Source: Bacillota bacterium
GTDB lineage: Bacteria; Bacillota; Clostridia; Christensenellales; CAG-138
Length of the DNA stretch: 44,721 nt
Reading direction: 5' to 3'
Assembly: GCA_016286445.1 (NCBI GenBank)
Contig: JAEESS010000013.1
Coordinates: forward strand, 1 to 44,721
The position numbers and the translations under genes were made by a program. The notes under the pieces were generated by a model. It had not been told where the DNA came from. It worked only from the letters and a program-made list of their open reading frames with translations, and made no database searches. Each line of letters begins with the position of its first letter. Position 1 is the stretch's first letter. Shown here one piece after another: positions 1,862 to 34,140 of the stretch.

Positions 1862-1898
1862 GATATGATTCCCAATACGGAGAAAAAGGAGAAACACT

Positions 1899-2366: not shown

Positions 2367-2382
2367 ATCGGAGTATAATATA

Positions 2383-7020: not shown

Positions 7021-7047
7021 TGTCATTCCCTCGGTCGTCGGCGATCA
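6503..7047. repeat. Direct repeat, copy 1: shared cargo leader
   Basis: This segment matches 8807-9351 without net insertion or deletion: three widely spaced landmarks all show an offset of exactly 2304 bases. In the 120 bases I compared closely (6841-6960) there are about six mismatches. It covers the untranslated leader, the ribosome site and about the first 173 codons. Similarity collapses abruptly after the codons for MQAKK. A recent duplication or gene conversion of a delivery leader is the simplest explanation. Confidence 0.85.
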
Positions 7048-7086
7048 GCGTGTATCCGTTGCGGAAGATAAACCTCGTTTTATCGA

Positions 7087-7554: not shown

Positions 7555-7569
7555 GTTTACGTCCTCCCG

Positions 7570-9324: not shown

Positions 9325-9351
9325 GGTCATTCCCTCGGTCGTCGGCAATCA
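8807..9351. repeat. Direct repeat, copy 2: shared cargo leader
   Basis: The partner of 6503-7047, offset by 2304 bases with no net gap. It contains the leader, the GAGGG ribosome site and the first codons through MQAKK. The sharp end of similarity inside the reading frame marks the border between the common delivery part and the individual payload. Confidence 0.85.
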
Positions 9352-9482: not shown

Positions 9483-11153
9483 TCAGTCCTCATCGTCGAA
9501 CACAGATCGGATCAGCTCCGTCCTTTTGCTCTCGTTAGCTCCGTAATACTTCAGGGAGAGCATGGTGCAGTCGTCGGGCTGCGGCTCGTCCGCAGAAAAG
9601 CGATCCACTGCCTGCTTCACGGTCTGGATCAGCACGCTGGGCGTCGCTTCCGGTTCGTGGTTCAAAAGCTCGAGTACGCGCCGATCTCCGAAACGCTCGC
9701 CCTTTTTGTTGCGCGCATTCCGAATGCCGTCGGAGAATATGAACACGCTGTCCCCCGGACAGAGCTGGAAGCCGTGGTCGCGGTAGCGGGAGCTCTCCGC
9801 CGCGCCGACCTCCGGGAAGCCCTCATACTCCAACTGTTCGAACTGCTTCCCCGCGCGGTGCAAAAGCGGCGATTCATACCCGGCATTGATGGCAATGCCC
9901 TTGCCGGAGGACAGTTCGAGGACGGCGAGCCATACCGCGGAGGACAGTCCGGTCTTGTACGAGATCATCTGTTCGCTGACGCTCTGCAGCACATCCGCGG
10001 GCGTAAAGCTCTGCATGGCGCGGCTCTTGATCAGCGTTTCGAGGATGACCATGTTGAGAGCGGCGGGAATGCCCTGTGCAGATACGCTGCCGACTACCAT
10101 AGCCAGATGGTCGTCGTCGATGAGGAAGAAGTCGTAGAAGTCGCCGCCGATCTGCTCGCTGGGGGAAAGCAGCGCATAGATATCAAAATCATTTCTCTCC
10201 GGGAACGCCGGATAATCGTTGGGAAGTATCTTGGCCTGGATGCGTTTTGCGAGACCGAGCTCCGCGCTGATACGCTCGCGGTCAGCCGTTACGGCAGTAA
10301 GCTGTCCGATGTAATCGTGGAGATCGTTGTCCATCTTTCGGAAGGAATTGGCAAGCTCTTCGAGCTCGTCGCCGGTGTGGATCTCCGGATCGAAGCGGGT
10401 TTTGCTCCGCAGCGAGCCGACTTCGCTTCCGAACGCGTTGTTGAGTTTTTCGATCGGATCAATGACCACCCGCCGCATGACCTTAAACAGCAGCAGAACG
10501 CCTATCCCGGTCACGACAAGGATCGAAATAAAGATGAGTCCCAAATAGTTGGTGAATTTCATGACCATCTTGTTAATCGAAAGGTCTGTTCCGACCAATG
10601 CGACGGGCTCGCCGCTGCTGTCGAATATGGGGGAGTACGCCGTGAGCAGGTTGCCCCAGGTTTTATCCGAGACCCTCACGTATTTTTCCTCCGGCGTGCG
10701 GCTGAACGCAAGCTCCGCCGCTTTCCTTTCCTTGGGTTGAATGTTCTCAATATGCCCCTGCGGCAGCGGGTGCTCCGAAGTCGTGGCGTCCCAGATATAG
10801 AGCAGACCTTCATCAACCGGTACGCAGACGTAATAGTACAAAACGAAATCGTTCTCATCCTGAATGGCGTTCAGGAAGGTTATGACCTCGTTATAGTACT
10901 GATCGCTGTAATAGAGTTTATCCCCGTTCTCTTTGGTACCGACAACGTTCAAATACTTCCGGACCTGGTCGCCGTCGATCATGCGGGCGCCGGAACGGGA
11001 TAGCGCAAACGCGTTTGCGGTTATTTCGTTGATTTCAACGCTGGAAGAATAGATCCCCACGGCTGCCGAGGTGCAGATCATGATAAACAATGCGAAAAGC
11101 AGCATGCCGATCATCAGCTTCGTGCTCAGCTTCTTTTTCTTCGTGCTCTTCAT
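9483..11153 (-). CDS. Membrane sensor with extracellular Cache-like domain, HAMP and PP2C/SpoIIE phosphatase domain
   Basis: A 556-residue protein with TM1 (about 13-34), an ectodomain of Cache type (about 36-200), TM2 (about 203-224), HAMP (about 225-285) and an SpoIIE/RsbU-type PP2C domain (about 295-540). RsbU-like enzymes dephosphorylate anti-anti-sigma factors. The metal-binding motif GGDFYDFF (336-343) is intact, as are SDG (474-476) and DD (527-528). The motif normally read GDVSG is GSVSA here, with Ser356 replacing a metal-binding Asp, so activity may be reduced or absent. The start at 11153 has AAAGGAG nine bases upstream; an in-frame start at 11246 lacks this and would overlap the previous gene. 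No anti-sigma or STAS partner gene is present nearby. Confidence 0.85.
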   Translation of the reverse strand: MKSTKKKKLSTKLMIGMLLFALFIMICTSAAVGIYSSSVEINEITANAFALSRSGARMIDGDQVRKYLNVVGTKENGDKLYYSDQYYNEVITFLNAIQDENDFVLYYYVCVPVDEGLLYIWDATTSEHPLPQGHIENIQPKERKAAELAFSRTPEEKYVRVSDKTWGNLLTAYSPIFDSSGEPVALVGTDLSINKMVMKFTNYLGLIFISILVVTGIGVLLLFKVMRRVVIDPIEKLNNAFGSEVGSLRSKTRFDPEIHTGDELEELANSFRKMDNDLHDYIGQLTAVTADRERISAELGLAKRIQAKILPNDYPAFPERNDFDIYALLSPSEQIGGDFYDFFLIDDDHLAMVVGSVSAQGIPAALNMVILETLIKSRAMQSFTPADVLQSVSEQMISYKTGLSSAVWLAVLELSSGKGIAINAGYESPLLHRAGKQFEQLEYEGFPEVGAAESSRYRDHGFQLCPGDSVFIFSDGIRNARNKKGERFGDRRVLELLNHEPEATPSVLIQTVKQAVDRFSADEPQPDDCTMLSLKYYGANESKRTELIRSVFDDED

Positions 11154-11193
11154 CCGAAAGAACTCCTTTCCTCCGTCAATACCGCCGCAGCGC

Positions 11194-12588
11194 TTATGAA
11201 AGCTCGGAGATGATCTCGAGCATATCCCTGCCGACGCCTGCCTCAAACGTCGCCCGCTTCGTGTGGGAACGGATATAGTTCGCAGCTATGCCGCCCGAGG
11301 CATCTCCGCCGATATCAAGTGGATCCTTTCCGCCCATCGGCGCGAGCATTTTCAGGTGCAGAATGTTTTCCTCGGGCTTGATCGCGCATTCGATCTTGAC
11401 GTCCGCATCCGCTCCGCAGACGCGGCAGCAGAGCGTAAACATCTCGTCCGCGAGCAAAATGTGCTTGGCCCGATCCTTCGGATCGATCCTGCCTTCTTCA
11501 AGGGTCTTGCGCATGAACTCGGTCACAAGCGGCGCATCCTCCGGAACGGAACGCACGAGCGTAAAGACAAAGTCCCGATTGCCCTTGACGTATTCGATCG
11601 CGATCGCTGCATAGCTCAGAATATCGTCGTCACTCTCGCAGAAAGCGGATGCCTCGTTCTGCACGAAACCCAAAAGCTCCTCCGTGCTCCGGCACCGGCT
11701 CCGGCTTCGGTTGAGCACGGAAAGAAGCTCCATGTCGCGGAAAAGTTCGCCGCTGCTGTTCTTCATCTCTCCAAGATCGGAGGTGCAGAGGAACAGAAGG
11801 TCGCCCTGATCCAGCCGCAGGATCTCGGAGCGATAGCTGACGCTCTCATTCGCGCCGAGAGGATCGTAGACAGGGGTGTTGAGCCATTCATAGCGCTCGT
11901 CGCTTCGCATCAGCAGCGGCAGCTCGCTGCCTGCGTTGACGAAGCTGAAACGGCCGTTCAGGGTGTTCATCACGCAGACAAGCGCGTTCACGCGGTTGCG
12001 TCCTCCCAGATCGTAAAGTTGCGCGTTTACGTCGGACATCGTCTCGGTAAGAGACCTTCCCAGGCGGAGCTGGCTGCGAATCGTGGTCTGCGCGACTACG
12101 GCGAACAGCGCCTCCGCGATATCGCTGCCGGGAACCTGTCCGACCGAAAAGCAAACCGTGTTCTCGTCAAGAAAGAAGTGATCGTAGAACACGCAGCTCG
12201 ATCGCTTCCCGGGCTGAATGCCGCCGGCAAGCGAAAAGGTCATGCTTGCCAGACGGTTTTTCAAAGCCTGCGGAAGAAGCGAAGCGCAGATCCCATCAAC
12301 CACCGCAGACTTGTAGCGCTCCTCCGCGGCCGGGTCCCCGCCGGTTCCTGCGCTTGTCTGCATCCGGGCTTCTTCACACGTCTCGATCAGCGCTTTCGCC
12401 GTCTTTCCGGGCGCGCCGCCGATCCGTTCCGCCTCTGCGCGCAGCGCTTCCGGGGTACGGTTTTCGGTCGCTTCGGTGAGCTTTTTCAATCTTCTCATCG
12501 GGATCAGGACCAGAAACAGTATGAGAAGGAGGGCGACGACGGCGCACAGCAAAAGCGTCGCAAGCACCGGGATCATGATCGTTTGCAT
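11194..12588 (-). CDS. Membrane-anchored degenerate PP2C-HATPase protein
   Basis: A 464-residue protein. One N-terminal membrane helix (about 5-30) is followed by a short linker, a PP2C/SpoIIE-like domain (about 95-335) and an RsbW-like HATPase domain (about 340-464). The fold pattern is clear, but key residues are lost. GGD of the first PP2C motif reads SSC (Cys132), and the Asp of GDVSG is Gln151; D271 and D320-322 remain. In the HATPase part the Glu of the N-box is present (DEMF, 381-384) but the usual Asn is missing, and the DxGxG box is not recognisable. A scaffolding or binding role is more likely than catalysis (inference). AAGGAG lies upstream of the ATG. The gene is five bases after the AAA+ gene. 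Confidence 0.8.
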   Translation of the reverse strand: MQTIMIPVLATLLLCAVVALLLILFLVLIPMRRLKKLTEATENRTPEALRAEAERIGGAPGKTAKALIETCEEARMQTSAGTGGDPAAEERYKSAVVDGICASLLPQALKNRLASMTFSLAGGIQPGKRSSCVFYDHFFLDENTVCFSVGQVPGSDIAEALFAVVAQTTIRSQLRLGRSLTETMSDVNAQLYDLGGRNRVNALVCVMNTLNGRFSFVNAGSELPLLMRSDERYEWLNTPVYDPLGANESVSYRSEILRLDQGDLLFLCTSDLGEMKNSSGELFRDMELLSVLNRSRSRCRSTEELLGFVQNEASAFCESDDDILSYAAIAIEYVKGNRDFVFTLVRSVPEDAPLVTEFMRKTLEEGRIDPKDRAKHILLADEMFTLCCRVCGADADVKIECAIKPEENILHLKMLAPMGGKDPLDIGGDASGGIAANYIRSHTKRATFEAGVGRDMLEIISELS

Positions 12589-12593
12589 TCGTC

Positions 12594-14735
12594 TCAGTCT
12601 CCTTCCAAAAGATCGGCGTATTCGCGCAGCTGTTCACGCACGACGACGATCTCGTTCTTTTTCATTTCGGTAACGGCGGCTCGCAGCAAGTGACGCATTG
12701 CGATCGGCTTGTCTTCTCCCGCCGCCATGAATGCCGCGGACATGACGATGTTCTTGATATGACCGCCGGAAAGCTCGAATTTTTCTCCGAGGAACCTCCA
12801 GTCGATCTGCGGGTCCAGCGGCGCGTCCTTCGGGATCATGACGCGGTAGATCGCCTCCCTCGCACGCGCGTCGGGGAACGGGAAGTGCACGACGTAGGTG
12901 ATGCGTCTCATAAACGCAGCGTCGATATTGCCGATCAGGTTGGTGGCGAGGATGCAAACGCCGTCGAAATCTTCGATCTGCTGCAGAAGATACGCCACCT
13001 CGACGTTCGCGTTGCGGTCGTGCGCGTCTTTGACTTCGCTGCGCTTTCCGAACAGCGCATCGCACTCATCGAAAAACAGGATACAGCTTGCGTTCTTTGC
13101 CTCCGCAAACAAGGCGCGGAGGTTTTTCTCCGTCTCGCCGATGTATTTGCTCACGATCTGCGACAGGTTGATCTTGTAGAGCTCCATGTTCAGCTCATGC
13201 GCGATCACCTGTGCGCACATGGTTTTTCCCGTTCCGGGAGAGCCCGCAAACAGGATCGACAGTCCCCAGCCATAACCGATCTTTTTTTGAAAGCCCCAGC
13301 GGACGGCGACCCTGTGCCGGTAGCGGATATGTCCGCAGGCGCGGCGCATCAGATTCTTCTGCGTCTCGGGCAGGATGACGTCGTCCCAGGTATACGCGGG
13401 CGTGACCTGCGTTGCGAGCTCGCCGAGTTTATGAACGGCCTGACGGTAGCAGCAGCGGTGGATCAGCTCCCCGGAGACTTCGCCCCTCCGATCCAGTCTT
13501 GCGAGACCGACTGCCTGCTCGCAGGCAATGCGGATCTGCCTCGGACTGAAACAGAATTTTGCCGCAAGCTCTTCGGTCGTGCAGCCGATCAGCCGCACAT
13601 TGCGAAGGAAGCTGTTGAACAGCGTCAGCCGTTCCGACTCGCTCACCCGCGGGATCTCAAGATCCACAGTAAGCGTTCTGAGCCGCATAGGCGCGGAGAG
13701 CCGGGAAAGAAAAATGCGTGTGTTTCTGCGCAGCTCAAGCTTTTCGAGCTCCTCGAGCATGGATTGCGGCGGCGGAACGAGCTGCCCCGCCTCGTCCCTG
13801 CGGTCGAGATGGTAAAGGCAGAGGTAAGCATCGGTCAGGTCGGCCGCAAGCGCCGCGCTCGCAGCTGTTTCGAGCCAGTCGTTTCCCTCAAGGTCTGCGA
13901 ACACGCACTTTTCGCGCTGCCGCGCGAACAGATGCTCGATCTGGAACCGCTTGCCGCCGCCCTCCGGTCCGCAAAGACGTATGCAGCAGCGTTCGGGATA
14001 CGAGAACGCCGCGTCGAGCTGTCTGGCAACCGTGTCATGGACGGCGAGCGGATCAAGCCGGCACGATGCGCCGTCGAACAGGCGAAACACGTCGCTGTCC
14101 CCGAGCGACCCGTTTGCAAGGAACTCTACGACTTCGCGCCGCAGCACAAGCAAACCTTTGTCCAGCTCCGCACGTTCGAAGAGTCTCACAAAGCGTCTGC
14201 TTTTGAAGCGCGAAACGCATGCCGTCAGCTCTGCGCCGTCCGGCAGGAACAGTTCGCAGCAGAGGGAGATGCCGGGCGCCTTCAGGGTCATATCATCCTG
14301 GAGATAGGCAAAAAGCTTTGTATATTTCAAGTCGATCTCGGCGGCATAAGCGAGAACAACGCTTTTGATCTCAAATTCATCGAGCGCGAAGCGTTCGAAG
14401 AGATCGACCAGCGGCAGCACCGCCTCGGTCTTTTCCAGCCGCAGCTTGATCGCGGACGTTGCAAGCACGATCTGTTCGCGCTCCTCCTCCGTCAGTTCCG
14501 CGGGCAGACCGCGCTGGGCTGCCTTCGTAAGGTTGTGTTCGAACTCCTCCCGCGTTACCACGAGACCGAGCAGGTTCCTCATCTCGGCTGAAGGTCCGAG
14601 CCACCGATGATGCGAATAGTAGTAAAACAGCTGCAGATCGAGCCACGCGACGAGATCGCGCAAAAGCTCCTCCTGACCTGCGTAGCCGCAGTCCAGGCGC
14701 GATACGTTGACACTGTTCAGATCGTTTGCTTTCAT
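12594..14735 (-). CDS. CIS-associated AAA+ ATPase (Afp15/Pvc15-like)
   Basis: A 713-residue ATPase of the kind found in nearly all extracellular CIS loci, thought to help assemble the particle or load its cargo. The N-terminal region (1-240) is helical and specific to this group. A first P-loop domain (about 245-415) has a degenerate Walker A, GPEGGGKR (256-263), without Ser/Thr and without a clear Walker B. The second AAA+ domain (about 445-695) is intact: Walker A GSPGTGKT (498-505), Walker B ILFFDE (552-557), sensor 1 Asn599 and RR at 610-611. The ribosome site GAGGAG lies five bases before the ATG. The PAAR-like tip gene lies nine bases upstream, consistent with a late-assembly role. Confidence 0.92.
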   Translation of the reverse strand: MKANDLNSVNVSRLDCGYAGQEELLRDLVAWLDLQLFYYYSHHRWLGPSAEMRNLLGLVVTREEFEHNLTKAAQRGLPAELTEEEREQIVLATSAIKLRLEKTEAVLPLVDLFERFALDEFEIKSVVLAYAAEIDLKYTKLFAYLQDDMTLKAPGISLCCELFLPDGAELTACVSRFKSRRFVRLFERAELDKGLLVLRREVVEFLANGSLGDSDVFRLFDGASCRLDPLAVHDTVARQLDAAFSYPERCCIRLCGPEGGGKRFQIEHLFARQREKCVFADLEGNDWLETAASAALAADLTDAYLCLYHLDRRDEAGQLVPPPQSMLEELEKLELRRNTRIFLSRLSAPMRLRTLTVDLEIPRVSESERLTLFNSFLRNVRLIGCTTEELAAKFCFSPRQIRIACEQAVGLARLDRRGEVSGELIHRCCYRQAVHKLGELATQVTPAYTWDDVILPETQKNLMRRACGHIRYRHRVAVRWGFQKKIGYGWGLSILFAGSPGTGKTMCAQVIAHELNMELYKINLSQIVSKYIGETEKNLRALFAEAKNASCILFFDECDALFGKRSEVKDAHDRNANVEVAYLLQQIEDFDGVCILATNLIGNIDAAFMRRITYVVHFPFPDARAREAIYRVMIPKDAPLDPQIDWRFLGEKFELSGGHIKNIVMSAAFMAAGEDKPIAMRHLLRAAVTEMKKNEIVVVREQLREYADLLEGD

Positions 14736-14744
14736 AGCAGCTCC

Positions 14745-15122
14745 TCAAGGGGTCTTGACTGTCATTGCCGGCGTCGAAGTGACTTGGATCACGCCGCCGT
14801 AAGTGCACATGAGCTTGGACGTGCTATTCAGCAGCGGCTTTCCGCATACCAATACGGTCGGCACGCCGGGCGCCCACGGCGCAATGATCGCCGGAACGCA
14901 CGGCGCAGGCGAAAACACGCCGAGCTTTGCCGCGGTAGCCGCGATGACCGCCGGATTGCTCGGACAGCTGCACATACCGAAGGGCGGGAACTTGTTGTCC
15001 ATGATGGTCGCCACGTTCAGGTTCATGCACTTGACCGTCTGCTGAGACGAAACCATCAGCGGCAGCGGCACGGCGCCGAAGGTGCAGGTGCAGACCGAAG
15101 ACATCACCGCGGGATTTGCCAT
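14745..15122 (-). CDS. PAAR-like tip protein (DUF4280 family)
   Basis: A 125-residue protein of the DUF4280 PAAR-like family, which forms the sharpened cone on the spike of contractile injection systems. The family pattern is complete: an N-terminal CTFGA, the block IMDNKFPPFGMC (about 40-51), the PCVPAIIAPW segment (about 83-92) and the C-terminal LMCTYGGVI (about 108-116). Cys and His-rich positions could bind a metal ion at the tip. Small size and absence of a toxin extension mean it is a plain tip. The ribosome site GGAGGA is eight bases before the ATG. Its spike partner is encoded about 16 kb upstream in the same transcript. Confidence 0.9.
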   Translation of the reverse strand: MANPAVMSSVCTCTFGAVPLPLMVSSQQTVKCMNLNVATIMDNKFPPFGMCSCPSNPAVIAATAAKLGVFSPAPCVPAIIAPWAPGVPTVLVCGKPLLNSTSKLMCTYGGVIQVTSTPAMTVKTP

Positions 15123-15126
15123 TTTC

Positions 15127-15867
15127 TCATTCCTCCGATCCCCATGCCAGCGTCTGCCGTCCGGCGTTCAGCTGCGCGGTAAATAACCTGCCGTCAAAAA
15201 AACCGATGAGCGTTCCCGGTTCCTTCAGCAGCACACAAACGTTCCCGTCCCCATCCGATTCGTAAGACTGTACGGGGATAAGCTCCGTTCCGCGCGGATG
15301 TTCCGAACAAAGCGGCGTCAAAAACGCCCCCTCCTCGTCCCGCAGATGGCGCAGATATACGATCTCCGGCGCGGTCTTGTCTGTGAACAGGAAATACCCC
15401 GGTATGGGCAGCAGCCCCGCATTGCCCTCGCAGAACAGCCTTGCCAGGGTCTCCCCGGCTTCCGCCCGCTCCTGCGCAAGGACCAGCCGCGTATGCGGCT
15501 GCTGACCGAGCCAGAGCCTCTCGTCGGAAGCGGCGTCTTTTCTGCGGTGAAGCGAAAGCGAAACGCGTACCGTTTCGGGCGGGAAGCGGTAGCCCGCTCC
15601 GGGTTTCAAAGAAATCGTATCCTCAATCGCGGCGTCTTCGCGGACGTCCATCTTCACATGCTCGTCGATATAACCGCTGCGCATCACGATCAGCTCGTGT
15701 TCACCCGGTTCGACGTCCGTCAGCACGAGGTATCCTTCTTTCTTCCAGATCGGCCGCACGAGCGGTCTGCCGTCAAGCAGACAGCGCGTACCCGAAAAGC
15801 CGGTCAGCGTCCGGCCTGTAAAGCCGTCGCGCAACAGAAATGCCGCGCTTACCGTCCTGCGGATCAC
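15127..15867 (-). CDS. CIS locus protein with N-terminal beta-sandwich-like domain, unknown function
   Basis: A 246-residue soluble protein that I do not recognise with confidence. Residues about 10-90 resemble a PEGA/carboxypeptidase-regulatory-like beta domain: a G-rich turn, VEPGEHELIV (about 52-61) and DTISL (about 88-92). The C-terminal half (about 95-246) is rich in beta-strand-like segments without a known motif. There is no signal peptide. The GTG start overlaps the stop of the DUF4255 gene (GTGA) and has AGGAGG upstream, so it is translationally coupled to it. Its position between the tail terminator and the PAAR tip suggests a structural or assembly role. Confidence 0.75.
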   Translation of the reverse strand: MIRRTVSAAFLLRDGFTGRTLTGFSGTRCLLDGRPLVRPIWKKEGYLVLTDVEPGEHELIVMRSGYIDEHVKMDVREDAAIEDTISLKPGAGYRFPPETVRVSLSLHRRKDAASDERLWLGQQPHTRLVLAQERAEAGETLARLFCEGNAGLLPIPGYFLFTDKTAPEIVYLRHLRDEEGAFLTPLCSEHPRGTELIPVQSYESDGDGNVCVLLKEPGTLIGFFDGRLFTAQLNAGRQTLAWGSEE

Positions 15868-16451
15868 AGGTCATCCTCCTTCTTTGCCTTCGTACCGATA
15901 ACGACTTCTTTGACGCGCGTCACATGTCTGGTGACGCCGGAATCAATGGTCACGCCCGTTACCGTCAGCACGGCCGAAAGCTTGTAGTCCTTCGACGTGT
16001 TATTCCAGATCTTGAGCATTTGTTCCATGCTTGTTCGATCGATCATGACGTGCAGCTTTGCGTTTTCCGCAGCAATGGATCCACTGAGAAACCGCTGCGG
16101 GATGACCGGATTGTCGCGGATCGTCTGCAGTGCCGCCCCCATGATCCGGTAGCAGTCCGCCTCCTTCATCTGCGTCGGCGCCTTGGAATGAGGCGTCATC
16201 AGAAAGTGCAGTATGTATTGCGCGGGGCGAATGCGTTCCGTTTCGCTGTCCACGCTGTAATACCCCGAGGTCATGCTCTGCGCTTCTTCCTCGATGTGGT
16301 AGAGAAAGAGCGTCAGCTGATTGTTTTCGCTTTCATGGGGAGAGCAGAGACTGATAAGCTCCCGGTTTCCCAATGGTTCCGGGGTCAGATTCTCGCGCAA
16401 AAGCTCAATGAGCGCGGCGCCTGCCTCCGTCAAAGCTGTATAATCCGCCAT
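15864..16451 (-). CDS. Tail terminator / DUF4255 protein (Afp16/Pvc16-like)
   Basis: A 195-residue DUF4255 family protein. In extracellular CIS this family forms the terminator or cap ring that ends tube and sheath polymerisation. Family features seen: an N-terminal helix with LRENL (about 18-22), the strand block LTLFLYHIEE (about 46-55), PAQYILHFLMTPHS (about 76-89), and the RIMGAALQTI helix (about 102-111). The C-terminal beta segment TRHVTRVKEVVIG is typical. Length is normal. AAGGGAG lies seven bases before the ATG. It directly follows the MORN-repeat membrane protein gene. Confidence 0.9.
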   Translation of the reverse strand: MADYTALTEAGAALIELLRENLTPEPLGNRELISLCSPHESENNQLTLFLYHIEEEAQSMTSGYYSVDSETERIRPAQYILHFLMTPHSKAPTQMKEADCYRIMGAALQTIRDNPVIPQRFLSGSIAAENAKLHVMIDRTSMEQMLKIWNNTSKDYKLSAVLTVTGVTIDSGVTRHVTRVKEVVIGTKAKKEDDL

Positions 16452-16466
16452 AGCGTAACTCCCTTC

Positions 16467-19403
16467 TCAACCATTGCTTGTTTTGTCCGGATCATCGGAT
16501 CCCGATCCGTCCGGATCGGACGTGGGGTCGGACGTGGGATCCGGCGTCGATGTCGGTTCCTCTGTGGGGTCGGGTGTCGGCGTCGGTTCCTCTGTGGGTT
16601 TGGGCGTCGGCGTCGGTTCCTCTGTGGGTTCGGGCGTCGGCGTCGGTTCCTGCGTCGGTTCCGGCGTCGGTGTCGGTTCCTGCGTCGGTTCCGGCGTCGG
16701 TGTCGGTTCCTGCGTGGGTTCGGGCGTCAGTGTCGGTTCCTGCGTAGGTTCGGGCGTCGGGTCCTGCGTGGGTTCCGGCGTCGGCTCCTGCGTCGGTTCA
16801 GGCGTCGGCGTCGGGTCCGGCTGTCTCTCTGCTTCAAGAAGCGGCTCGAACACGTCCTTGTGCCAATCGAAGGTCCGGCAGACCCAGCCGCCTGTCAGCT
16901 GGTTGAAATGGTTCGCGTATGATGAGAACTCCGCCATCGCGGTATAGAGATCGACCCGTGAAAGCACTTCGTCGTCCAGAGCGGCGAACCAGTCGGCCTT
17001 GGTTGCGGTGCCCATCGAGTAGTCGTAAAGAAGATCGTCTGCGGTTTTGTCCAGCAGCTTGTGTCGCTGCAACGCAAGTTCCGCCGCGGTGTGGGCGTCG
17101 GAGAGGTTCAGAAGACCTTCCTTGACCATATCCTTGATCTCCGATTCGGTCTTTTTGCTTCCGATCGCATTCATATACGCAATGGCAAATACCTCCAGCC
17201 CGCTGATATCCTGATTGCCCGGATCGAAAATGAGGAGCATCTCTTCCAACGCATAATCAGACAGGTTGTCAATGCCGTATTTTTGTGCTTGCAGCGCCGC
17301 GCGCTTGATCGCGGTCCGCGTCGTCTCGCTCTGTGCTTTGAGCTCAAGCTGCCGCTTTTCAAGCTCTTTGACTTTGGCTGCGGAGCCGAGACCTTTCGCG
17401 ACCGCCGCCTTCTCGTCGGAGAGCAGCATGTCGTTTCGTTCCGTCATCTCGTCCAGCGCGGACAGCCGCTGTTTCTGCACCCAGTATTCGATCATGGCGT
17501 CTGCGAGCGCGATGGCGTCGTCTGCGGTCTCCGCATTCTCAAGCGCCTCGTCCGTCGGCTTGCCGCCGAACTTGGCTCCCTTGCTGCCCGCCGTTCCGTC
17601 ATAGCGGATCATCTTATCGAGCGCGCTCAGCAGTTTTTTCACCTTGCTGCTTTTGCCGTTCCCCTTGGCGGGGATCGCTGTCGGTTCGGCGTCGGAGCGC
17701 TCCCAGATCAGCAGCAGCGCAAGTGAAAGGGTTTCGTCCGAATAAAGCACCGTAATGTCGTTCTTGTCGGTTTCGGCATGCTCGGAGTCGTATATGCCCG
17801 ATTTGAGCTGCACGCCCGTTCTTTCGGTATACGCTCTCCGACAGCATTCGGCCTCGGTGTCCTCGGGCCATTGCATCGACAGTGTATGCTCCATGCCGGG
17901 CAGGATCTTTACCCAGTCGTCTTTCGCCGGAGCGCTTAAAAACAGCTTCAGGATCAGCGGATCGTCCTTTTCGGTCCGGAAACTGCAAAGTGCGGTGAGC
18001 CCCAGCTCTTCCGCGATCATCAGAAAGCCCTTGTCCGCCGTTTCGTTTCTGACGCTTCCTTTGCCCAGAAATCCGAGAAATTCGTCCGTCGTTTTTCCGA
18101 GGATCTGCAGTCCGTCAATGGTGCCGCCGAGGAACGGTCCTTCATAAATGGCCTTTCCCGCCTTGTTGTAAAGCGTGCCGAAGCCGTTCGGCGCGTCATT
18201 CGCCCACTCTCCCTGATAGTACAGGAAGCCGTTTTTCATCCATTTCACGATGCCCGTGGGAACGCCTTCCGAGAAGTTTGCAAGCAGCAGGTTCGAGCCG
18301 TCGAAGTGAAGCGTGCCGTCGCCGCTGTAAACATCCTCCTCAAAGCCGCCCTCGTAGAGTTTTGAACCGTCCTCGTTGTACGCGATGCCGTCGCCGTCCC
18401 GCAGCCCCGCAAGGAACGTTCCCTGATAGGAGATCTTTCCGGAGGGATAGTAGTAGGCGGCGCCGCTGCCCTCCTCTTTTCCGGCGTGAAATGCGCCGTC
18501 ATAGATCAGTACCTTGTCCCGGTACAGTTGCCCGCGGCCTTCATAGATGCCGCTCTGAAACTGACCGTCATATAATAGGGTTCCGTCCTTGTACTGTTTG
18601 CCGCGGTCTTCATATAGATTGTTGCGGAACTGACCGTCATAGATAAGCGCTCCGTCTTTGTACTGCTTGCCGTGCCCCTCATATAAGTCGCTCTGGAACT
18701 GACCGTCGTAAATCAGCTCTCCGTTTTGATACTCTTTTCCGTTTCCGTTCCGTTTTCCTTTATCGTACTGCCCGCTGTATCGGATCTGTCCGTCCTCGTA
18801 CAGCGTCCCGAACCCGTCATAAATACCGTCGGTAAACCGGCCGTCATATTGAAGTACACCGTCTTCATACGCTTTTCCGCTTCCGTTGCGGATGCCGTCC
18901 GTTACCTGTCCCTCATAGATCAGGACTCCGTTTTCATCATACAGCTTGCAATCCCCCTGCAGAACGCCGTCCTCAAGGCGACCCGAATACAGCGGGACGG
19001 TTTTCTTCTGGTCCGAATAAACGATCACGCGCCCGCTCCAGTCCTCGACGCGTTTGTCCTTTACATAAAACCTTGCGGTCAGAAAATGGCTGAGCACAAA
19101 CGGCCATACCACGAAGTAGCCGATCAGAGCAAGCGCGATGATGATCAACACGATCCGTATGATCAGCGATTTTGAGATCAGAAGTTTTTTTGTTTCCACA
19201 TAGTCCGAAGGCTTGCTCGGATTCTGTGTGGCGGAGGCCATGCCCTGCAGGGACGCGGAGGCAGCTTTCGTCGCGTGACGCGAAAAATTCGTCAGTCGAC
19301 GCAGCCCGGACACGAAACTCATGAGCTTTCTGGAGAAGAAAGCACGCAGTGTCCGGAAAAACACGCCTATTGAACGTCCAAGTCTTCGAAAGAAGTATTT
19401 CAA
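16467..19403 (-). CDS. Membrane protein with MORN repeats, TolC-like helical domain and Pro/Thr-rich tail
   Basis: A 978-residue protein. A strongly basic amphipathic N-terminus (1-75) and one membrane helix (about 78-106) predict N-in, C-out topology. About 12 MORN-type repeats of the form YDGQF...GxGxxY follow (about 130-440). After an uncharacterised region, residues about 610-850 form long coiled-coil helices with a pattern like TolC-family proteins ([15 protein letters not shown] and a following A/Y-rich helix). The last 120 residues are PTPEPTQE-type repeats, typical of wall-spanning stretches. The start codon is TTG with GGAGGTG about seven bases upstream. No similar gene belongs to the known CIS core. 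A membrane or envelope anchor for the particle is plausible (inference). Confidence 0.8.
16547..16815. repeat. Pro/Thr coding repeats (about 30-bp units)
   Basis: Near-perfect 30-bp units encode [10 protein letters not shown] and variants with Glu, Lys or Asp at some positions, ending in a Ser/Asp-rich tail. They form the C-terminal tail of the MORN-repeat membrane protein. Such tracts are prone to copy-number change. Confidence 0.8.
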
Positions 19404-19453
19404 GCTGTTACACCTCCAAACCGGATCCCGGCGTCATGCCGAAGGTCCTTCCG

Positions 19454-19792
19454 TCAGCTCCATCGGATCAGATCGCTCTTAAACAGCGCAAGAACCAACA
19501 GAGCGAATAGAATCAGAACGATCACCGCCTGCACCGCCCTGCCGATACGTCTTCTTTTATAATCCGGTGCGGTCGCGTATTTCTGTACCGGCGAGCGGCG
19601 TACATATCCGTCGGGCAGCGGCGCGGGAGCTTCCTCCGCGTCGGTCTTCGGCGCGGTCCTGCGGTCCGCTCCGCCCATATTGTCACAGATCTGACGAATC
19701 AGGGTCTCCCTTTCCTGCGGCGATGCGCCGTCCTGCTTCGTCCTTCCGGGTTCTTTTCCCGTCTGCTGTTTCAGCAATTCTTCCCAGGGCAT
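19454..19792 (-). CDS. Small tail-anchored membrane protein
   Basis: A 112-residue protein with a charged, probably disordered N-terminal part (1-80), a basic patch KRRRIGR (about 79-85) and one C-terminal membrane helix (about 88-105) ending close to the C-terminus. This is the layout of a cytosolic tail-anchored protein. No known domain is visible. It lies one base after the cyclase-like gene and 50 bases before the MORN gene, whose product is also a membrane protein. A linker or adaptor in the same membrane assembly is a reasonable guess but is not shown. Confidence 0.7.
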   Translation of the reverse strand: MPWEELLKQQTGKEPGRTKQDGASPQERETLIRQICDNMGGADRRTAPKTDAEEAPAPLPDGYVRRSPVQKYATAPDYKRRRIGRAVQAVIVLILFALLVLALFKSDLIRWS

Positions 19793-19793
19793 G

Positions 19794-22376
19794 TTACATC
19801 TCGCCTCCTTCGGTGTAATCGAAGTTCAGCACGCAGGGCAAGGACGGATTGTGTTCCAGACGATCCGTCAGATGCAGATAGTATCGTGCGCCGCCGTCGT
19901 TCGGATAATTGTGCGCAAGCTGCAGGAACGTATGCTTTGCTCCTGCCGTATCTCCGCTGTACAGATCGTAGACGCCCCTTGCAAAAATGTCGATCGATCC
20001 GGCTTTGCCGCGCCGTGTGTTGAAGTCGTCTCCGTCAAATACCTCGTAAACCCTCACGGGCTGTCCGCCGACCAGGCACTTTCCCATATAGCGGCTGCCG
20101 TAGTCCTGATGCGCGGAAAGAATGACCTCGGTGCACAGGATGCCCGCCTTGAGTTTGCCGCAAAGCCGGGTCAGCTCCTGCACGACGGCCAGACTGGAGG
20201 AGATGGTCGTAGGCGTCATCGTCGAAGCGTCGCCTACGATACCGAGCATGAAGTTGCCCCTGTCGATCGCGATCCGCAACGTAACGCCGGGAAGAAGCTC
20301 CTGCGCGCGGGACTCGTTAAACGACAGCACCTCCTGCTGGATCGCAATTGCCGTGCTGACCGCTTCTCCGCTGTCGTCCATCACAAATTCAAATCCGTTG
20401 TACGCAAAGTGGAACGCGATCCCGTTCTTCCTCGCAACGATGGCGGACGTGCGCTCTATGATCTCGTTTACACTGTCAAACAGGAAACGGCTGTCGGTCA
20501 TATCCGTATAAAGGGCGTCCGGAAACGTAAAGCAAACGGAACCGATCGCCATGCGCCGCGCCGCGAAATCGCTTTTATCCACGTCCAAGATCGACGGCTT
20601 GTCCAGAAGCGCCAGGACCTTTTCCGGCACGAAGCGGCGATATGCCTTTTCCATGTTTTCACGGTCCGCTTCCTGCTTCTTTATGGCTGCGCCGAACGAG
20701 TTTACGACGCTCGCCATGCTCTCCAGCTCATCGCCCGTGCGGAGCTTGAGCGGTTTGGATCCGTTTCCCTGCGAAATGCGCTCGATGGTCTTTGAGATCT
20801 TCCGCAGATCCACGCTTAAAAATGCGAGTATGATCAGCGCAAGAAGTGTCAGCAACCCGAACCCGCCGAGTATGAAGATCCAAAGCGTCTTATTCTCGAT
20901 CTTATCGGGCGAGTTCATGCGGATGCTCAGACTGTGCGTATCGTGCGTCACAATGAAGCGGAACACGTCGCCGCGCAGCTGATCGTAAAATCCGCCCGCC
21001 CGGGAGGCGTTTGCCAGAATGGAGGAGAATCCTTCCAGCGTGACGGCGTTTCTGCCGTCCGCGGTACGCCAGATATCTTCGGTCAGCTCCGTTCGAACGA
21101 CACACACATTCTCGCCGCATCCCGCACCTTCCAGCATACGGGCTACGTCCGCCGCCAGATTATTGTCATTCCATCGCTGTTCCGCATCCTCCGCCTTCAA
21201 TACCGCCTGAACAGCCGCCTCCTGTTCACGCTTTGCGGCGTTTTTCTCGGCGGGTTCCAGCACGATGAGACGCAGAACGGTAATACACAGCAGCGCGCCT
21301 GCCACGATCAGGCTTCCGCGCAGGATCGCCAAAGGCGCGTATCCGCGCCGCAGACCGCAGAACAGCAGCCAAAGCAGTATCGCGCCTGCCAGCGCGATCC
21401 CGGCAAAGCCGACGAGCGAAAGATACTGGCGAACGGTGCTTGCTCGCAGGACGCCTTCGAGTTCTCTCGTACCCGCGGCGTCCGAAACGCAGAGCGTCGT
21501 CCCGTCGAACAGCATCAGAACGCTCTCTTCTCTTGTGATCGCAACGGAGGTAAGGACCCTGCCTTTTCCGTTCAGCACCGCGCGCAGCGGGAGGATGCGG
21601 AAGTTCTCGTCCAGATCCGCGTCCACAAAATACAGTTCAAAATCGACGGCATCAATGTAATACCAGCCGCCCGTTCCCTGCGCCAGGTGCGTCACCGTCT
21701 GGCCGTCAAGCGGCGCCGTTGCGGCTTTGTTGTTCAGAATGATGCTTTCCGCGCCGCCCCGCAGGACCGAGCCGTCGTCAAATGTGAGAACGCTGAGCAC
21801 GCCGTCTTCCATGGTCGTTTCTTTTCCGACCGGTTCAAGGCCTCCGCTTTCGCGGCAGATATAACACTTCAGCGTTTGGTCGGTCCAGAACGCAAAGCAC
21901 ATCACGCCGTTTCCGAACGACAGCTCGGAAAATCTCGTCCGCGCGGTCCGCTCCATGAAGGAGTCCCCTTCGCAGTCCACGTCGAGCAGACAATCGACGT
22001 TTCCGCCCGTGATACGGAACAGATAAAGCTTATCCGCGTTCTTTCCGTACAGGGCGAGAAATGTCAGGTCGTCGCTTACGGGCAGCAGTCGGCAGATCAT
22101 GCCGTCCATACAGCTTTCGGGCAGATTCAGATGCTGAATGTCCTTTTTCGTGCCGTCCGTGCTGAACCGGCAGAGCACGAGCTCGTCGTCCTGCCAGCCC
22201 GCAGCCGCGGCGAACTTACCGTTCCCCGCTCCGACGCACTGCCAGTCACAGCCGTCCGGCTGCCCCCGCAGCGCATCGATGCTTTTCAAGATCGGTTTTT
22301 TCGCCGCCAGCATTACGATGCAGCCGGCGATCACCAGCATGATGAAAAAATACAACCAGCTTCTTCTGACGTTCAT
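19794..22376 (-). CDS. Four-pass membrane receptor with degenerate class III cyclase domain
   Basis: An 860-residue protein. TM1 (about 8-25) is followed by an ectodomain of about 290 residues with repeating beta-strand blocks like a beta-propeller, TM2 (about 318-340), TM3 (about 352-373), a second ectodomain (about 375-497), TM4 (about 499-521), HAMP (about 521-572), a class III nucleotide cyclase-like domain (about 605-780) and a TPR-like tail. The catalytic domain lacks both metal-binding Asp residues: no Asp occurs in 609-619, and the usual GDG reads YNG with Asn660. It probably cannot make cAMP or cGMP. The start at 22376 has AAGGAGG about six bases upstream and lies one base from the previous stop. 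The likely role is sensing and signal transfer by conformation. Confidence 0.85.
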   Translation of the reverse strand: MNVRRSWLYFFIMLVIAGCIVMLAAKKPILKSIDALRGQPDGCDWQCVGAGNGKFAAAAGWQDDELVLCRFSTDGTKKDIQHLNLPESCMDGMICRLLPVSDDLTFLALYGKNADKLYLFRITGGNVDCLLDVDCEGDSFMERTARTRFSELSFGNGVMCFAFWTDQTLKCYICRESGGLEPVGKETTMEDGVLSVLTFDDGSVLRGGAESIILNNKAATAPLDGQTVTHLAQGTGGWYYIDAVDFELYFVDADLDENFRILPLRAVLNGKGRVLTSVAITREESVLMLFDGTTLCVSDAAGTRELEGVLRASTVRQYLSLVGFAGIALAGAILLWLLFCGLRRGYAPLAILRGSLIVAGALLCITVLRLIVLEPAEKNAAKREQEAAVQAVLKAEDAEQRWNDNNLAADVARMLEGAGCGENVCVVRTELTEDIWRTADGRNAVTLEGFSSILANASRAGGFYDQLRGDVFRFIVTHDTHSLSIRMNSPDKIENKTLWIFILGGFGLLTLLALIILAFLSVDLRKISKTIERISQGNGSKPLKLRTGDELESMASVVNSFGAAIKKQEADRENMEKAYRRFVPEKVLALLDKPSILDVDKSDFAARRMAIGSVCFTFPDALYTDMTDSRFLFDSVNEIIERTSAIVARKNGIAFHFAYNGFEFVMDDSGEAVSTAIAIQQEVLSFNESRAQELLPGVTLRIAIDRGNFMLGIVGDASTMTPTTISSSLAVVQELTRLCGKLKAGILCTEVILSAHQDYGSRYMGKCLVGGQPVRVYEVFDGDDFNTRRGKAGSIDIFARGVYDLYSGDTAGAKHTFLQLAHNYPNDGGARYYLHLTDRLEHNPSLPCVLNFDYTEGGEM

Positions 22377-22377
22377 C

Positions 22378-23106
22378 TCAATCCTCCTTGCGTTTGCGGC
22401 GGAACACACGACCGAGCATGATCAGCCCGCGCCTTACAATGCTCTTGTGCTGAAATTCTTTCCGTTCTTCGCGAATGGCTGGTTCCGCCTCGCGCCAGCG
22501 GCTGTACAGCGAGACCACGTTCCGGAACGATCCGGATTCCAGTTCGTCGAGGAAGCGCCGTTCCTCCTTGCCTGCCCGAAGCGTCCTCGGCAGGATCTTC
22601 CGGACCTGATCCGTCGCTAAAAGCGCCGTCTCCCGCTGGTTCATTTCCTCCATCGGCGCCAGCATCCAGCGGATATTGACGCGCTGCTCCTTCGGATCGA
22701 TGAGCACATTGTCGCTCAGCAGCGCCGCACAGCTCATCTCCGGAGGCATGTTCGCAAAACTGAGCGCAAGATGGAGCAGCTTTTCCGTGTAAAGCAGCCG
22801 ATCCTCATCGCTCCATGAATCCCCGCGGCAGAACAGTGTGTCTATGGGTTCGCCTTTGCTCAGATCAAATGCCGCGATAAGCGTTCCGCGTTCCAGAAAC
22901 ATCCCGCGAAATGCCGGGCATTCCTCCTTCCGGATCCCGGAACATATCCGGGCGTATCTGCGCAGAAGCGGTCCTTCATAGAGATTGAGCAGGCAGGAGG
23001 GCGTCTCCCGATCGGAAATATCCACTGCCTCCAGAAGCGCATAATCGGACTGCTGGGCAATGACGCGCACGACCTTATAACACTCGCGAATCAGCATTGT
23101 TTCCAT
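22378..23106 (-). CDS. Pseudokinase-like cytoplasmic protein
   Basis: A 242-residue protein whose layout suggests a Ser/Thr kinase fold. The N-lobe-like start YKVVRVIAQQSDYALLEAVD (10-29) is followed by a C-lobe segment SDNVLIDPKEQRVNI (131-145) that matches the catalytic loop pattern xxNxLIDxxxxVxI. The active-site residues are missing: no Lys in the expected VAIK strand (CLLNLYE, 38-44), no HRD before SDN, and Arg-Trp in place of DFG. The C-terminus is strongly basic. I favour the ATG at 23106; the ATG at 23148 is possible but lacks a good ribosome site. The stop is one base from the cyclase-like gene, suggesting the two proteins work together. The kinase assignment is moderate. Confidence 0.6.
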   Translation of the reverse strand: METMLIRECYKVVRVIAQQSDYALLEAVDISDRETPSCLLNLYEGPLLRRYARICSGIRKEECPAFRGMFLERGTLIAAFDLSKGEPIDTLFCRGDSWSDEDRLLYTEKLLHLALSFANMPPEMSCAALLSDNVLIDPKEQRVNIRWMLAPMEEMNQRETALLATDQVRKILPRTLRAGKEERRFLDELESGSFRNVVSLYSRWREAEPAIREERKEFQHKSIVRRGLIMLGRVFRRKRKED

Positions 23107-23153: not shown

Positions 23154-24935
23154 TTACTCAACGATCACGAATGCACTTGCGGTGATGCTCTCATCCGCAG
23201 TGCTGATCGCAAGAATCTCATAGGTGCCGGGAAGCTCCGGCGCCTGATAAATACCGTTATGGTCGATGACACCGCCGTTGGATTCCTTGACGGTCCAGCG
23301 CACGCCCTTGTCCTCGCTGCCGGTCACCTCCGCCTGGAAGACAAGATTGCCGCGGGGTGCGACGTGGGAGAACTCCGGCGTGACGGTCAGTCCGACGCGG
23401 CGCTTCGCCATGATGCGGCTGGTATCGCGCTCGGGTTTCTGCGCGAAGTAATGCACGGTCAGGCGGTTGCCCTCTACCATGTCGTGCAGCCAAAGGCCGA
23501 TGCGCATCGTGCCGCGGCGGGGATAGACGACGGCAGCGGCTTCCACCCAGGGAACGTCTTCCTTCTGCTTGCCCTTGATGAAGACCTCGCTGTTGCCGAA
23601 GAAGAGGGCTGTTTCGTCGCCCTGCGCGTGATCGGTGAACTCGATGCTCAGCCGCACGTCGACCATGCCCTGTCCAAGCCCGTGCGGGATCTCTTCGGAA
23701 AAGACCTTCCTGTTCACGCGAACGCCTCCCGGAAGCGTCAAATCCACGGTGCCGTGGCTGACCGCATAATCGTACTGTTCGGGAGAAGGAATGCCGAAAT
23801 CAAAGTGAAGCGCGCCCGTGGAGGGCTGGAAGTTGGCTTTCACGTCGGGCTTCTGCCAGTATTCGAGCGAGCGGACCGAGGTCGTCACGGTGCGCGGACC
23901 TCCGTCGGAAACCTGCGCGGTCTCCTTTGCGATGCGCTGCGCAAACGGCAAGTTCGTCACGGAGACGAGGAACATACTGCCCGCGGAATGCAAAAGCTCC
24001 AGTTTGGCAAGATAGATCGGGATATCTCTGCCCCTGAGTCTGCGTTCCAGATTGTCGGCCAGACGTCTGCGTTCCGCAAGCTGATACGTATCCTTGCAGA
24101 GATAGCATTTTGCGCCGACCTCCATGTAGTTCTTGCGCCGATGGCTCCCCAGTTCGAGGTCGATCTCGCCGCCGGAGGGCAGGAACATGCTTTCGATCTC
24201 GCTCATCTGTCTTGCTTTCAGACGGAAGCTCACCTGATATACGCGACGGGTCTCCGACGGATCCTCGCGGAATTGCAGATGGATGCGCCCGTCCTCGCTC
24301 TCGGTGAAGCCGCTTGCGCCGCTCAGTTCAAAATAGACCGGCGGCGTTTTCTCGTTCTTGACGACCAGCATGTCGACCGTGAACTCTCTGCCCGCGCAGA
24401 CCAATTCGGGAACCGCGAGCACGAGCGAAAGCTTGTCGCTCGAATAAATGACCGAAACGTTCTCCTTGCCGGATGCTTCCAGCAGCGCGCGGTAGTCCGG
24501 CTCCTCCGCCGTAAGGAACAGCTTTGCACCTTCGCGGGTGATGTTGAACTGCCGGCTTTCGCCCGAGGACGCACCGACCGCATTGACCGGCTCTGCCTGC
24601 GTCTCATGATAACGCATGCACAGATACGCGCTGTCCTTGCCTTTGATCGTCTCCTGCCCGTCTATCATCTGCAGTTTTCGCAGAAGGGGCTCCTCAATGA
24701 CGACCATCCGTCCGAGATAGTCGATCGCCATGCCGCTTTCGATCAGAAGCGTGGAATCGTCGCTCACGCTGACGCCGAGACCGCATACAACGCCCGCGCC
24801 GAACGCGAGCCGGCGCATCAGCTGAGCCGTGCTCCTCGTATACCGCTGCTCGTTGTCAAAATCCCGGACTGTCAGCAGCTTGCCGTAGAAATACCGGTTT
24901 CGCTCCAGCGGGAAGAAGTCCTTATTGCCGCTCAT
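23154..24935 (-). CDS. CIS baseplate-associated protein with C-terminal Ig-like domain
   Basis: A 593-residue protein. The start region FFPLERNRYFYGKLLTVRDF (about 8-27) and AGVVCGLGVSV (about 48-58) are typical of a protein family I associate with CIS baseplate loci of Gram-positive and cyanobacterial type. The middle is beta-rich. The last 85 residues form a bacterial Ig-like (Big-type) domain with the pattern RWTVKE...GGVIDHNGIYQAP. Ig domains often sit at the end of fibres that bind surfaces, so a receptor-binding or fibre role is plausible (inference). The ATG at 24935 has AGGAGG eight bases upstream and lies within the end of the gpI-like gene. Confidence 0.75.
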   Translation of the reverse strand: MSGNKDFFPLERNRYFYGKLLTVRDFDNEQRYTRSTAQLMRRLAFGAGVVCGLGVSVSDDSTLLIESGMAIDYLGRMVVIEEPLLRKLQMIDGQETIKGKDSAYLCMRYHETQAEPVNAVGASSGESRQFNITREGAKLFLTAEEPDYRALLEASGKENVSVIYSSDKLSLVLAVPELVCAGREFTVDMLVVKNEKTPPVYFELSGASGFTESEDGRIHLQFREDPSETRRVYQVSFRLKARQMSEIESMFLPSGGEIDLELGSHRRKNYMEVGAKCYLCKDTYQLAERRRLADNLERRLRGRDIPIYLAKLELLHSAGSMFLVSVTNLPFAQRIAKETAQVSDGGPRTVTTSVRSLEYWQKPDVKANFQPSTGALHFDFGIPSPEQYDYAVSHGTVDLTLPGGVRVNRKVFSEEIPHGLGQGMVDVRLSIEFTDHAQGDETALFFGNSEVFIKGKQKEDVPWVEAAAVVYPRRGTMRIGLWLHDMVEGNRLTVHYFAQKPERDTSRIMAKRRVGLTVTPEFSHVAPRGNLVFQAEVTGSEDKGVRWTVKESNGGVIDHNGIYQAPELPGTYEILAISTADESITASAFVIVE

Positions 24936-26022
24936 GGTCAATTCCTCCTATTGTCGTGTCGTTATGGATGGTCACCGTCTCGTCGATGATGGCGGCGACG
25001 TATTCTTCTATGCTTGTGTTGAGACCGAGGTAGGTGTGCCTGTCAAGCTGAACGCCCGGCTTCAGCAGCACCAGTTCGGGCGTCGTCTCCGCCGGAACGT
25101 ACTCTTTGAGCTGCTCCAGAAATCGTTCCATCTGCTGCTGGTTGGAGAAGGTCCCCTGCGGCAGCAGCAGGAAGAATCGGTATGGATCGTCCCCGAACAG
25201 TTTGCGGCAGAGCTCCGGATCGCTGCAGGACGGGTCGTTCGGGTCGACCATGAAATGCTCTATGATGGTCGGCGTCTGCCCGGTCAGCTGCCGTACGGTG
25301 CGCTGGATGCCGCTGACCGTATACATCGTTTCGTATTCTTCGATGATGTGCGGAAGTACGCTGCGAAGCTCTTCCTCGGACAGACTCTCGTCCGCGCAAA
25401 GCCAGTGCGCCAGATACCGCAGCATATCCGGGTCCGCGGAGGACGTCGCAAACTGCTTGCGCGACAGCCGGATCCGCTCCTCCATGTCATGAAACATCGC
25501 GGTAAAGACGGACAGGAAGCGGTAGGTAAAGTCCTGTTTCTGATAGATCGACGGCAGGTAGTCCGTCATATGATCGCTCTCCGCCAGAATGCTTACCTCG
25601 TCCAGCCGCGGCTTTTCGGTCCCGCCGCTGGCGAAGCAGACCGCGATCCAAAGCCAGCGTCCCGTGTCGGAAAGCCAGGCGTCGTCTGAGGATGCCTTCG
25701 GAGGACCGAACAGCGTGCGGACCGCTTCCGAAACGCGCCCGTCCCCTTTGAAGCGCCGCCATGCGTCCCATTCCGGATCGTCCGACGCGCGTGCAAATAT
25801 CTGTACCGAGGCGTCCCTCGGCAGAGACGTCGTCAGGCGGACTCTCCCCCAGCGGAAGTCCGATTCCCCGCTGTCCAGAGGCGGCAGCAGTACCGCGCCT
25901 TCAAACGCGTTGTCCGCGAGCAGCAGACTGTCCCCGCGCCTGTCCATCGACAGACAGACGCTGTCTTTCCATCGCTCCGCGACGCTGAAATGCCAATAGG
26001 TCTGGGCATCCAATTCCCTCAC
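24922..26022 (-). CDS. Phage tail protein I-like baseplate protein
   Basis: A 366-residue protein. The C-terminal 220 residues match the P2 gpI-like tail protein family of CIS: DYLPSIYQKQDFTYRFLSVF (about 153-172), the LRYLAHWLCAD helix (about 199-209) and the block TVSGIQRTVRQLTGQ (about 235-249). Residues 1-145 form an extra N-terminal beta-rich domain. It links the baseplate to fibre-type proteins in related machines. The GTG start overlaps the preceding stop (GTGA) and has AAAGGA six bases upstream, so translation is coupled to the wedge gene upstream. Confidence 0.85.
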   Translation of the reverse strand: MRELDAQTYWHFSVAERWKDSVCLSMDRRGDSLLLADNAFEGAVLLPPLDSGESDFRWGRVRLTTSLPRDASVQIFARASDDPEWDAWRRFKGDGRVSEAVRTLFGPPKASSDDAWLSDTGRWLWIAVCFASGGTEKPRLDEVSILAESDHMTDYLPSIYQKQDFTYRFLSVFTAMFHDMEERIRLSRKQFATSSADPDMLRYLAHWLCADESLSEEELRSVLPHIIEEYETMYTVSGIQRTVRQLTGQTPTIIEHFMVDPNDPSCSDPELCRKLFGDDPYRFFLLLPQGTFSNQQQMERFLEQLKEYVPAETTPELVLLKPGVQLDRHTYLGLNTSIEEYVAAIIDETVTIHNDTTIGGIDHERQ

Positions 26023-28088: not shown

Positions 28089-28131
28089 AATCAATACCCT
28101 TTCTTCAGGATAGTTTCAAACAATACGATCG

Positions 28132-31451: not shown

Positions 31452-31489
31452 TGCGCTTGCCTCCTCTGCCGTATCGTTTCGCTCCCGGC

Positions 31490-33375: not shown

Positions 33376-33394
33376 TCTGCGTCCTCCCGTTCCG

Positions 33395-34123: not shown

Positions 34124-34140
34124 GCCCTTTCCACCTCCTC

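Follow-up and report, generated by a model that had tools for sequence, protein, structure and literature searches.

We analysed a 44,721-nucleotide stretch of DNA from a Clostridia genome (positions 1–44721 of contig JAEESS010000013.1, assembly GCA_016286445.1; hereafter the window) and found that a block of degenerate signalling genes sits inside its extracellular contractile injection system (eCIS) operon. The block encodes a soluble kinase-like protein (KIN), a membrane receptor with a cyclase-like domain (CYC) and two PP2C phosphatase-like proteins (PP1 and PP2), and a receiver-like protein is encoded at the operon head (Table 1). Comparison with related loci showed that KIN, CYC, PP2 and the receiver are, to judge from their residues and substitution rates, ancient pseudoenzymes retained by selection. 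From the folds and their conservation we infer, at a probability of about 0.5, that the products of the block form a complex of pseudoenzymes at the membrane, which would dock the injection machine and relay an outside signal to it by conformation.

The source genome comprises 2.65 Mb in 109 contigs and is 81.69% complete. By its Pfam matches the window carries a single gene cluster of eCIS type, with a sheath, three tube proteins, a tube cap, a spike, gp25, baseplate J proteins, Pvc16, a PAAR-like DUF4280 protein, an AAA+ ATPase and two proteins with the eCIS core domain. The minus strand carries the block (9483–23106), with baseplate genes on one side and the Pvc16, PAAR and AAA genes on the other. 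The gene order is g23154 (a CIS13-like structural gene), KIN, CYC, MORN and Pvc16, flanked by baseplate and spike genes, and KIN lies directly beside both CYC and the baseplate gene. An earlier interpretation made from the letters of the window alone (the sequence-only reading) had described a free-standing signalling locus and missed this injection-system context.

The CIS13-like protein served as query and marker for finding related loci, and it returned 50 named loci with record titles that are nearly all Oscillospiraceae, Clostridia or genera thereof. KIN was present in 48 of these and CYC in 48, with both, side by side, in 47; of the exceptions, L063 and L102 are cut short by the end of the contig, and in L094 CYC stands with a KIN remnant. 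Five loci (L062, L065, L095, L105 and L106) are apparently the same records as L048, L050, L057, L053 and L051 and were counted once among the 50; L102 and L107 belong to the same genome, on separate contigs. With the query or centre genome counted in each case, KIN was found in 2/398 genomes phylum-wide, 7/396 order-wide and 3/45 in the family of the divergent genome G536. CYC was found in 10/151 relatives, several of the matches being weak or partial. In five divergent genomes (G536, G599, G605, G653 and G730), three of which fall outside the class of the window, the order CIS13-like, KIN, CYC, MORN recurs and both KIN and CYC are again degenerate. Neither PP1 nor PP2 was seen in the stretches read from these five genomes. 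Therefore, KIN, CYC and MORN look like an old core, to which PP1 and PP2 look like a later addition.

A structure model supported a two-lobed protein-kinase fold for KIN. Measured against the standard catalytic motifs, which we used likewise for cyclases, PP2C, HATPase and receiver domains, this fold is stripped of its key residues. In an alignment of the window with 45 of 46 full-length orthologues (L078, a near copy of L084, was omitted), Lys was absent from strand beta3 (residues 51–57) and Asp from residue 142 in 46/46 rows; the window has Ala142 where hhalign sets the HRD Asp. As hhalign put the beta3 Lys column on Leu53 and not on the invariant Asn55, we limit the claim to a beta3 strand without Lys. 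The DFG column was not placed by the alignment tool, and a triplet pattern scan over residues 150–190 was used; a D-hydrophobic-G triplet occurred only in row L066, and the KIN of the window has no DFG. A Gly-rich loop pattern is not present, and the catalytic-loop Asn147 is kept in 46/46 rows. In agreement, the sequence-only reading had listed the VAIK Lys, HRD and DFG as missing. KIN has no membrane helix in a hydropathy scan, and its reading frame overlaps that of CYC at 22378–22409. Locus L094 (about 11763–14561) carries a natural near-deletion of KIN, in which a short remnant of the first residues precedes CYC and the other operon genes remain; the small protein g19454 was not found there.

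CYC is laid out as beta-propeller-like and Cache-like outer parts, a HAMP segment, a cyclase-fold domain (about 615–793) and a helical tail, and a structure model supported the class III cyclase fold. Sequence methods saw this fold faintly, with a short hmmsearch match (1.7e-4) and an hhalign probability of 3.1 against one active cyclase, in which the first motif was not usably aligned. We aligned the window with 42 relatives, omitting fragments, sequences that contain unknown residues, and L094, L107 and L078. Residues 624–630, the region of the first metal Asp, were free of Asp in 43/43, and this holds whether the column is Cys626, as mafft placed it, or Phe629. At the second metal position Asp stands in 21 and Asn in 22 of 43, and the window has Asn671; the earlier claim that both metal Asp are gone was borne out, its Asn660 being the same residue counted from Met12. 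The base-specifying and transition-state residues are mostly missing (Ser738, Ala741 and Glu745 in CYC; exceptions Asn741 in 2/43 and Arg745 in 4/43). CYC differs from class III adenylyl and guanylyl cyclases such as OaPAC, CyaB, Cya2 and CyaC in lacking the first metal Asp and most catalytic residues. We consider it very unlikely that these domains are still enzymes or nucleotide sensors, working with altered residues or new chemistry as do pseudokinases with gained activities. The invariant Asn147 of KIN, and the Asp or Asn that CYC has at its second metal site, would fit such activity, yet KIN has neither the beta3 Lys nor a Gly-rich loop pattern, CYC has lost the first metal Asp throughout, and no four-Asp set occurs among the PP2 proteins.

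In a tree of 116 PP2C domains, PP2 formed a clade of 41 (support 1.0) split from PP1 and the controls, and the four metal Asp were retained in 0/41 of its members. The PP2 of the window has Val at the first metal position and Gln at the second, and the remaining two metal columns are changed too. The sequence-only reading had named Cys and Gln here; the Gln was correct, and the Cys precedes the first metal position. The C-terminal tail matched HATPase_c_2 in 9/27 relatives, the copy in the window being unmatched, and with standard N-box spacing its N-box position has Leu in 26/27 and Val in 1/27 (Leu386 in the window), which confirms the loss of the N-box Asn described by the sequence-only reading. 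PP2 resembles systems of the RsbU/RsbW-type partner-switching scheme in joining a SpoIIE-type PP2C domain to a HATPase-like tail, but differs in its missing metal site and N-box Asn, and a STAS partner was not found in the locus. The PP1 and PP2 genes overlap at 11194–11246. In four loci (L052, L054, L056 and L138) a single protein of ~670 aa, which combines a sensor, a PP2C domain and a HATPase-like tail, replaces PP1 and PP2, and it is degenerate in each.

PP1 has a different history. All four metal Asp are present in 25 of the 30 loci that have both phosphatase-like genes. Of the other five, the window and G003, its nearest relative, have Ser in place of Asp387, whereas Asn has replaced Asp387 in L186, Asp369 in L174 and Asp558 in L172. 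Another 15 PP1-like proteins, from other contigs, the far cluster end or paralogues, were kept outside the 30 and all have four Asp. Control PP2C proteins had all four in 26/26; sequence came from 26 of 29 control loci, and L004, L006 and L007 (distant SpoIIE matches in the genome of the window) missed the profile and were left out. The window, G003, L186 and L174 share a tree region with the intact L139, L140 and L141, which implies at least two losses there, and the Asp loss in the PP1 of the window is recent. Ser387 stands in the DVSG motif as first described, aligned without gaps to relatives. Catalytic residues at shifted but equivalent sites were considered and ruled out for PP1 and PP2, whose motifs align gap-free.

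These counts bear on whether the module is a phosphatase pathway, with PP1 as its sole working enzyme, PP2 and KIN as allosteric controllers, and PrkC or another housekeeping kinase phosphorylating the substrate of PP1, whose activity would have been secondarily lost in the lineage of the window. The intact metal sites in most PP1 proteins, matched by the controls, speak for it, as does the one clear protein kinase encoded elsewhere in the genome. We nevertheless judge this account unlikely. The window and G003 retain the operon and PP1 despite the loss of Asp387, three more of the 30 loci have lost one Asp, and the fused proteins of four genomes are degenerate. Furthermore, no STAS-domain substrate matched among the window proteins scanned, and in the stretches read from the divergent genomes KIN and CYC occur with no PP2C.

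At the head of the operon, the receiver-like protein has Cys82 at the phospho-Asp position, as assigned by motif, confirming the earlier call of a pseudo-receiver. Asp was absent from this position in 10/10 sequences (window included); an Asp stands three residues beyond it in the window and two others, and two residues beyond in one more. Receiver orthologues headed the operon in 9/10 stretches retrieved for them, and L212, a stretch retrieved for the upstream region in G003, contained no homologue of the window. In contrast to these domains, the AAA+ ATPase has Walker A and B motifs, and among 32 relatives the Walker A pattern matched in 28 and Walker B in 26, the misses being genes truncated at the stretch end or a GVPGTGK variant outside the pattern used. 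With this ATPase and the mostly complete PP1, the proposal that every enzyme-like domain of the locus is degenerate does not hold.

To gauge selection we used our own Nei-Gojobori counts for one pair, the window and G003. dN/dS was 0.190 for KIN, 0.195 for PP2, 0.198 for PP1 (PP2C part 0.132) and 0.239 for CYC, whose cyclase-fold domain, at 0.093, came close to the CIS13-like structural gene (0.088); the AAA gene had 0.060. By this measure, purifying selection keeps the degenerate domains. It is accordingly extremely improbable that the locus was once active and has decayed in a single strain. This lineage has indeed lost the PP1 Asp that most loci keep, but shared ancient degeneracy, open frames and dN/dS far below 1 speak against such decay and contradict it for KIN, CYC, PP2 and the receiver. 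Orthologous loci keep the active residues mostly in PP1 and not in these four. The losses in KIN, CYC, PP2 and the receiver are common to other genera, families or classes, and since they are mostly one ancient inheritance, the earlier argument that five or six independent losses in one locus are improbable by chance falls. The switch by binding and conformation that it was meant to support survives in part, as retained, conserved degenerate domains under purifying selection fit a switch or a scaffold.

Signalling folds so poor in catalytic residues suggest docking or triggering through shape change instead of chemistry. Among 32 locus products, a hydropathy scan gave clear hydrophobic helices only in CYC, PP1, PP2, MORN and g19454. 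Scores barely above threshold (1.64–1.66), from the PAAR-like protein and the first of the eCIS-core proteins, were left uncounted. In the docking complex that we favour, the outer propeller-like and Cache-like parts of CYC would detect a ligand or a contact, and the signal would run through the HAMP of CYC into a non-catalytic cyclase-fold dimer. KIN would be the scaffold, holding CYC on one face and the baseplate (the CIS13-like or neighbouring proteins) on the other, and PP2 would use its dead PP2C and HATPase domains to bind a partner. On the inner side of the cell membrane, the complex would dock the machine once assembled, and a conformational change would license firing. PP1, by its residues a real PP2C in most relatives, may add a phosphatase input there, which in the lineage of the window would have become binding-only as well. 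A bolder and tentative extension, which we hold to be doubtful, is that the whole chain of cyclase-fold receptor, kinase fold, phosphatase fold, HATPase and receiver became a catalysis-free mechanical relay that fires the machine from inside the membrane; the lineage of the window would also have removed the last catalytic member, leaving protein contacts and the AAA+ ATPase alone as the trigger.

Two known systems offer partial precedents. EssB/YukC, the pseudokinase of type VII secretion system b, is described in the available text of PMC12599244 as a scaffold and recruiter. Like KIN, it is a Firmicutes kinase-fold protein with degenerate catalytic motifs in the operon of a protein-delivery machine; unlike KIN, it has its own membrane helix, and KIN is paired with a cyclase-fold receptor (PMC12599244). 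EssB was not among the 50 KIN matches listed, which excludes nothing. The MviN (Rv3910) pseudokinase domain covered in the same text differs from KIN in serving cell-wall synthesis as part of a transmembrane protein (PMC12599244). CisA of Streptomyces is a membrane protein required for contractile injection system firing that may sense a signal, with a proposed outer sensor domain, according to the portion available to us (PMC12237407). It shares with our module a place in the membrane and a gene within a contractile injection locus. CisA is, however, a lone protein that crosses the membrane once, and that portion describes no pseudoenzyme domain in it (PMC12237407), whereas here the membrane proteins number five or more and several pseudoenzymes occur. 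By analogy with the EssB/YukC scaffold, and from the embedding of the genes among structural genes, the block could be a structural membrane anchor without signalling, its folds recruited as rigid parts. We regard this as quite unlikely, given that CYC has kept a HAMP segment linking its outer sensor-like parts with the cyclase-fold domain and that PP1 retains a sensor and usually a full metal site.

Several observations weigh against the docking complex. The kinase identity of KIN is invisible to sequence search (a PDB sequence-profile search found no kinase, best E 0.23) and weak by hhalign against control kinases (Prob 13.5, E 0.0021). KIN is not strictly required, as L094 retains CYC with a mere remnant of it, and the absence of PP1 and PP2 from the divergent stretches means that the phosphatase part is not universal. 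The outer location of the CYC sensor parts comes from the hydropathy scan and one model. Finally, no tail-fibre gene was recognised in the families scanned against the locus proteins; this counts in favour of the complex, but it is weak evidence because several locus proteins match nothing.

In the part of an eCIS survey that was available, the regulators GerE, BTAD and RfaH are accessory genes beside eCIS loci, and phosphatase, cyclase and MORN are unmentioned (PMC8213781). Those regulators are transcriptional, in contrast to the membrane-linked pseudoenzymes found here (PMC8213781). The accessible part of a review gave no clear parallel (PMC12961389). In the open-licence literature we found no paper that connects SpoIIE, a pseudokinase or a pseudoenzyme to contractile injection systems, none that does so for cyclase, phosphatase and MORN proteins together, and none on such systems anchored to the membrane in Clostridia, which leaves novelty unproved.

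Table 1. Features of the eCIS operon and its pseudoenzyme block in the window.
Feature	Coordinates	Strand	Support and remarks
Two eCIS-core-domain (DUF4157) proteins, small protein in between	5056–7026 and 7570–9348 (span 5056–9348)	-	
PP1, two-helix sensor + PP2C domain	9483–11246	-	Pfam SpoIIE 4.4e-33; Asp387 to Ser
PP2, one-helix PP2C (SpoIIE-type) pseudophosphatase + degenerate HATPase-like tail	11194–12588	-	Pfam SpoIIE 3.1e-23
AAA+ ATPase	12594–14735	-	Pfam AAA 1.2e-31; intact Walker A GSPGTGKT and Walker B FFDEC (translation)
PAAR-like DUF4280 protein	14745–15122	-	
PEGA-like protein	15127–15867	-	E 0.073, below cut-off
Pvc16	15864–16451	-	
MORN-repeat protein	16467–19403	-	Pfam MORN 6.8e-12; one hydrophobic helix 81–99; C-terminus rich in Pro-Thr-Glu
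Small protein g19454	19454–19792	-	C-terminal hydrophobic helix 86–104; position conserved
CYC, membrane receptor	19794–22409	-	Four hydrophobic helices
KIN, soluble pseudokinase, 256 aa	22378–23148	-	Likely start ATG at 23106
CIS13-like structural protein (g23154)	23154–24941	-	NCBIfam CIS13_fam 5.5e-24, 85 bits vs cut-off 370
Baseplate, spike, gp25, tube cap, three tube proteins and sheath genes	24922–41560	-	
Pseudo-receiver at operon head	43446–43883	-	Pfam Response_reg 0.0016, below cut-off

Other features of the cluster concern the machine itself. The long Pro-Thr-Glu-rich C-terminal repeat and single helix of the MORN protein look as if made for crossing the cell wall. The tandem eCIS-core proteins resemble each other over much of their length and are probably cargo or cargo carriers. 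A protein of 1188 aa (34141–37707) with no Pfam or PHROGs match is encoded between the tube and tube-cap genes and is possibly the length ruler. NCBIfam and PHROGs scans added little for KIN, MORN and the PEGA-like protein. On the plus strand, at 898–4392, the cluster is bordered by housekeeping genes (dihydrouridine synthase and a class II tRNA synthetase).

How contractile injection systems are anchored and how their firing is controlled is open in most lineages. The membrane proteins of this locus raise the possibility that the machine stays with the cell and is not released as extracellular particles. Conserved pseudoenzymes in such an operon predict that docking or firing needs genes without the usual catalytic residues. 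The carriers are gut and rumen bacteria and include, by record title, the cultured genera Flavonifractor, Agathobaculum, Pseudoflavonifractor, Oscillibacter and Faecalibacterium. Within them, the PP1 series, intact in most loci and with one Asp lost in a few, lets the cost of losing catalysis be traced.

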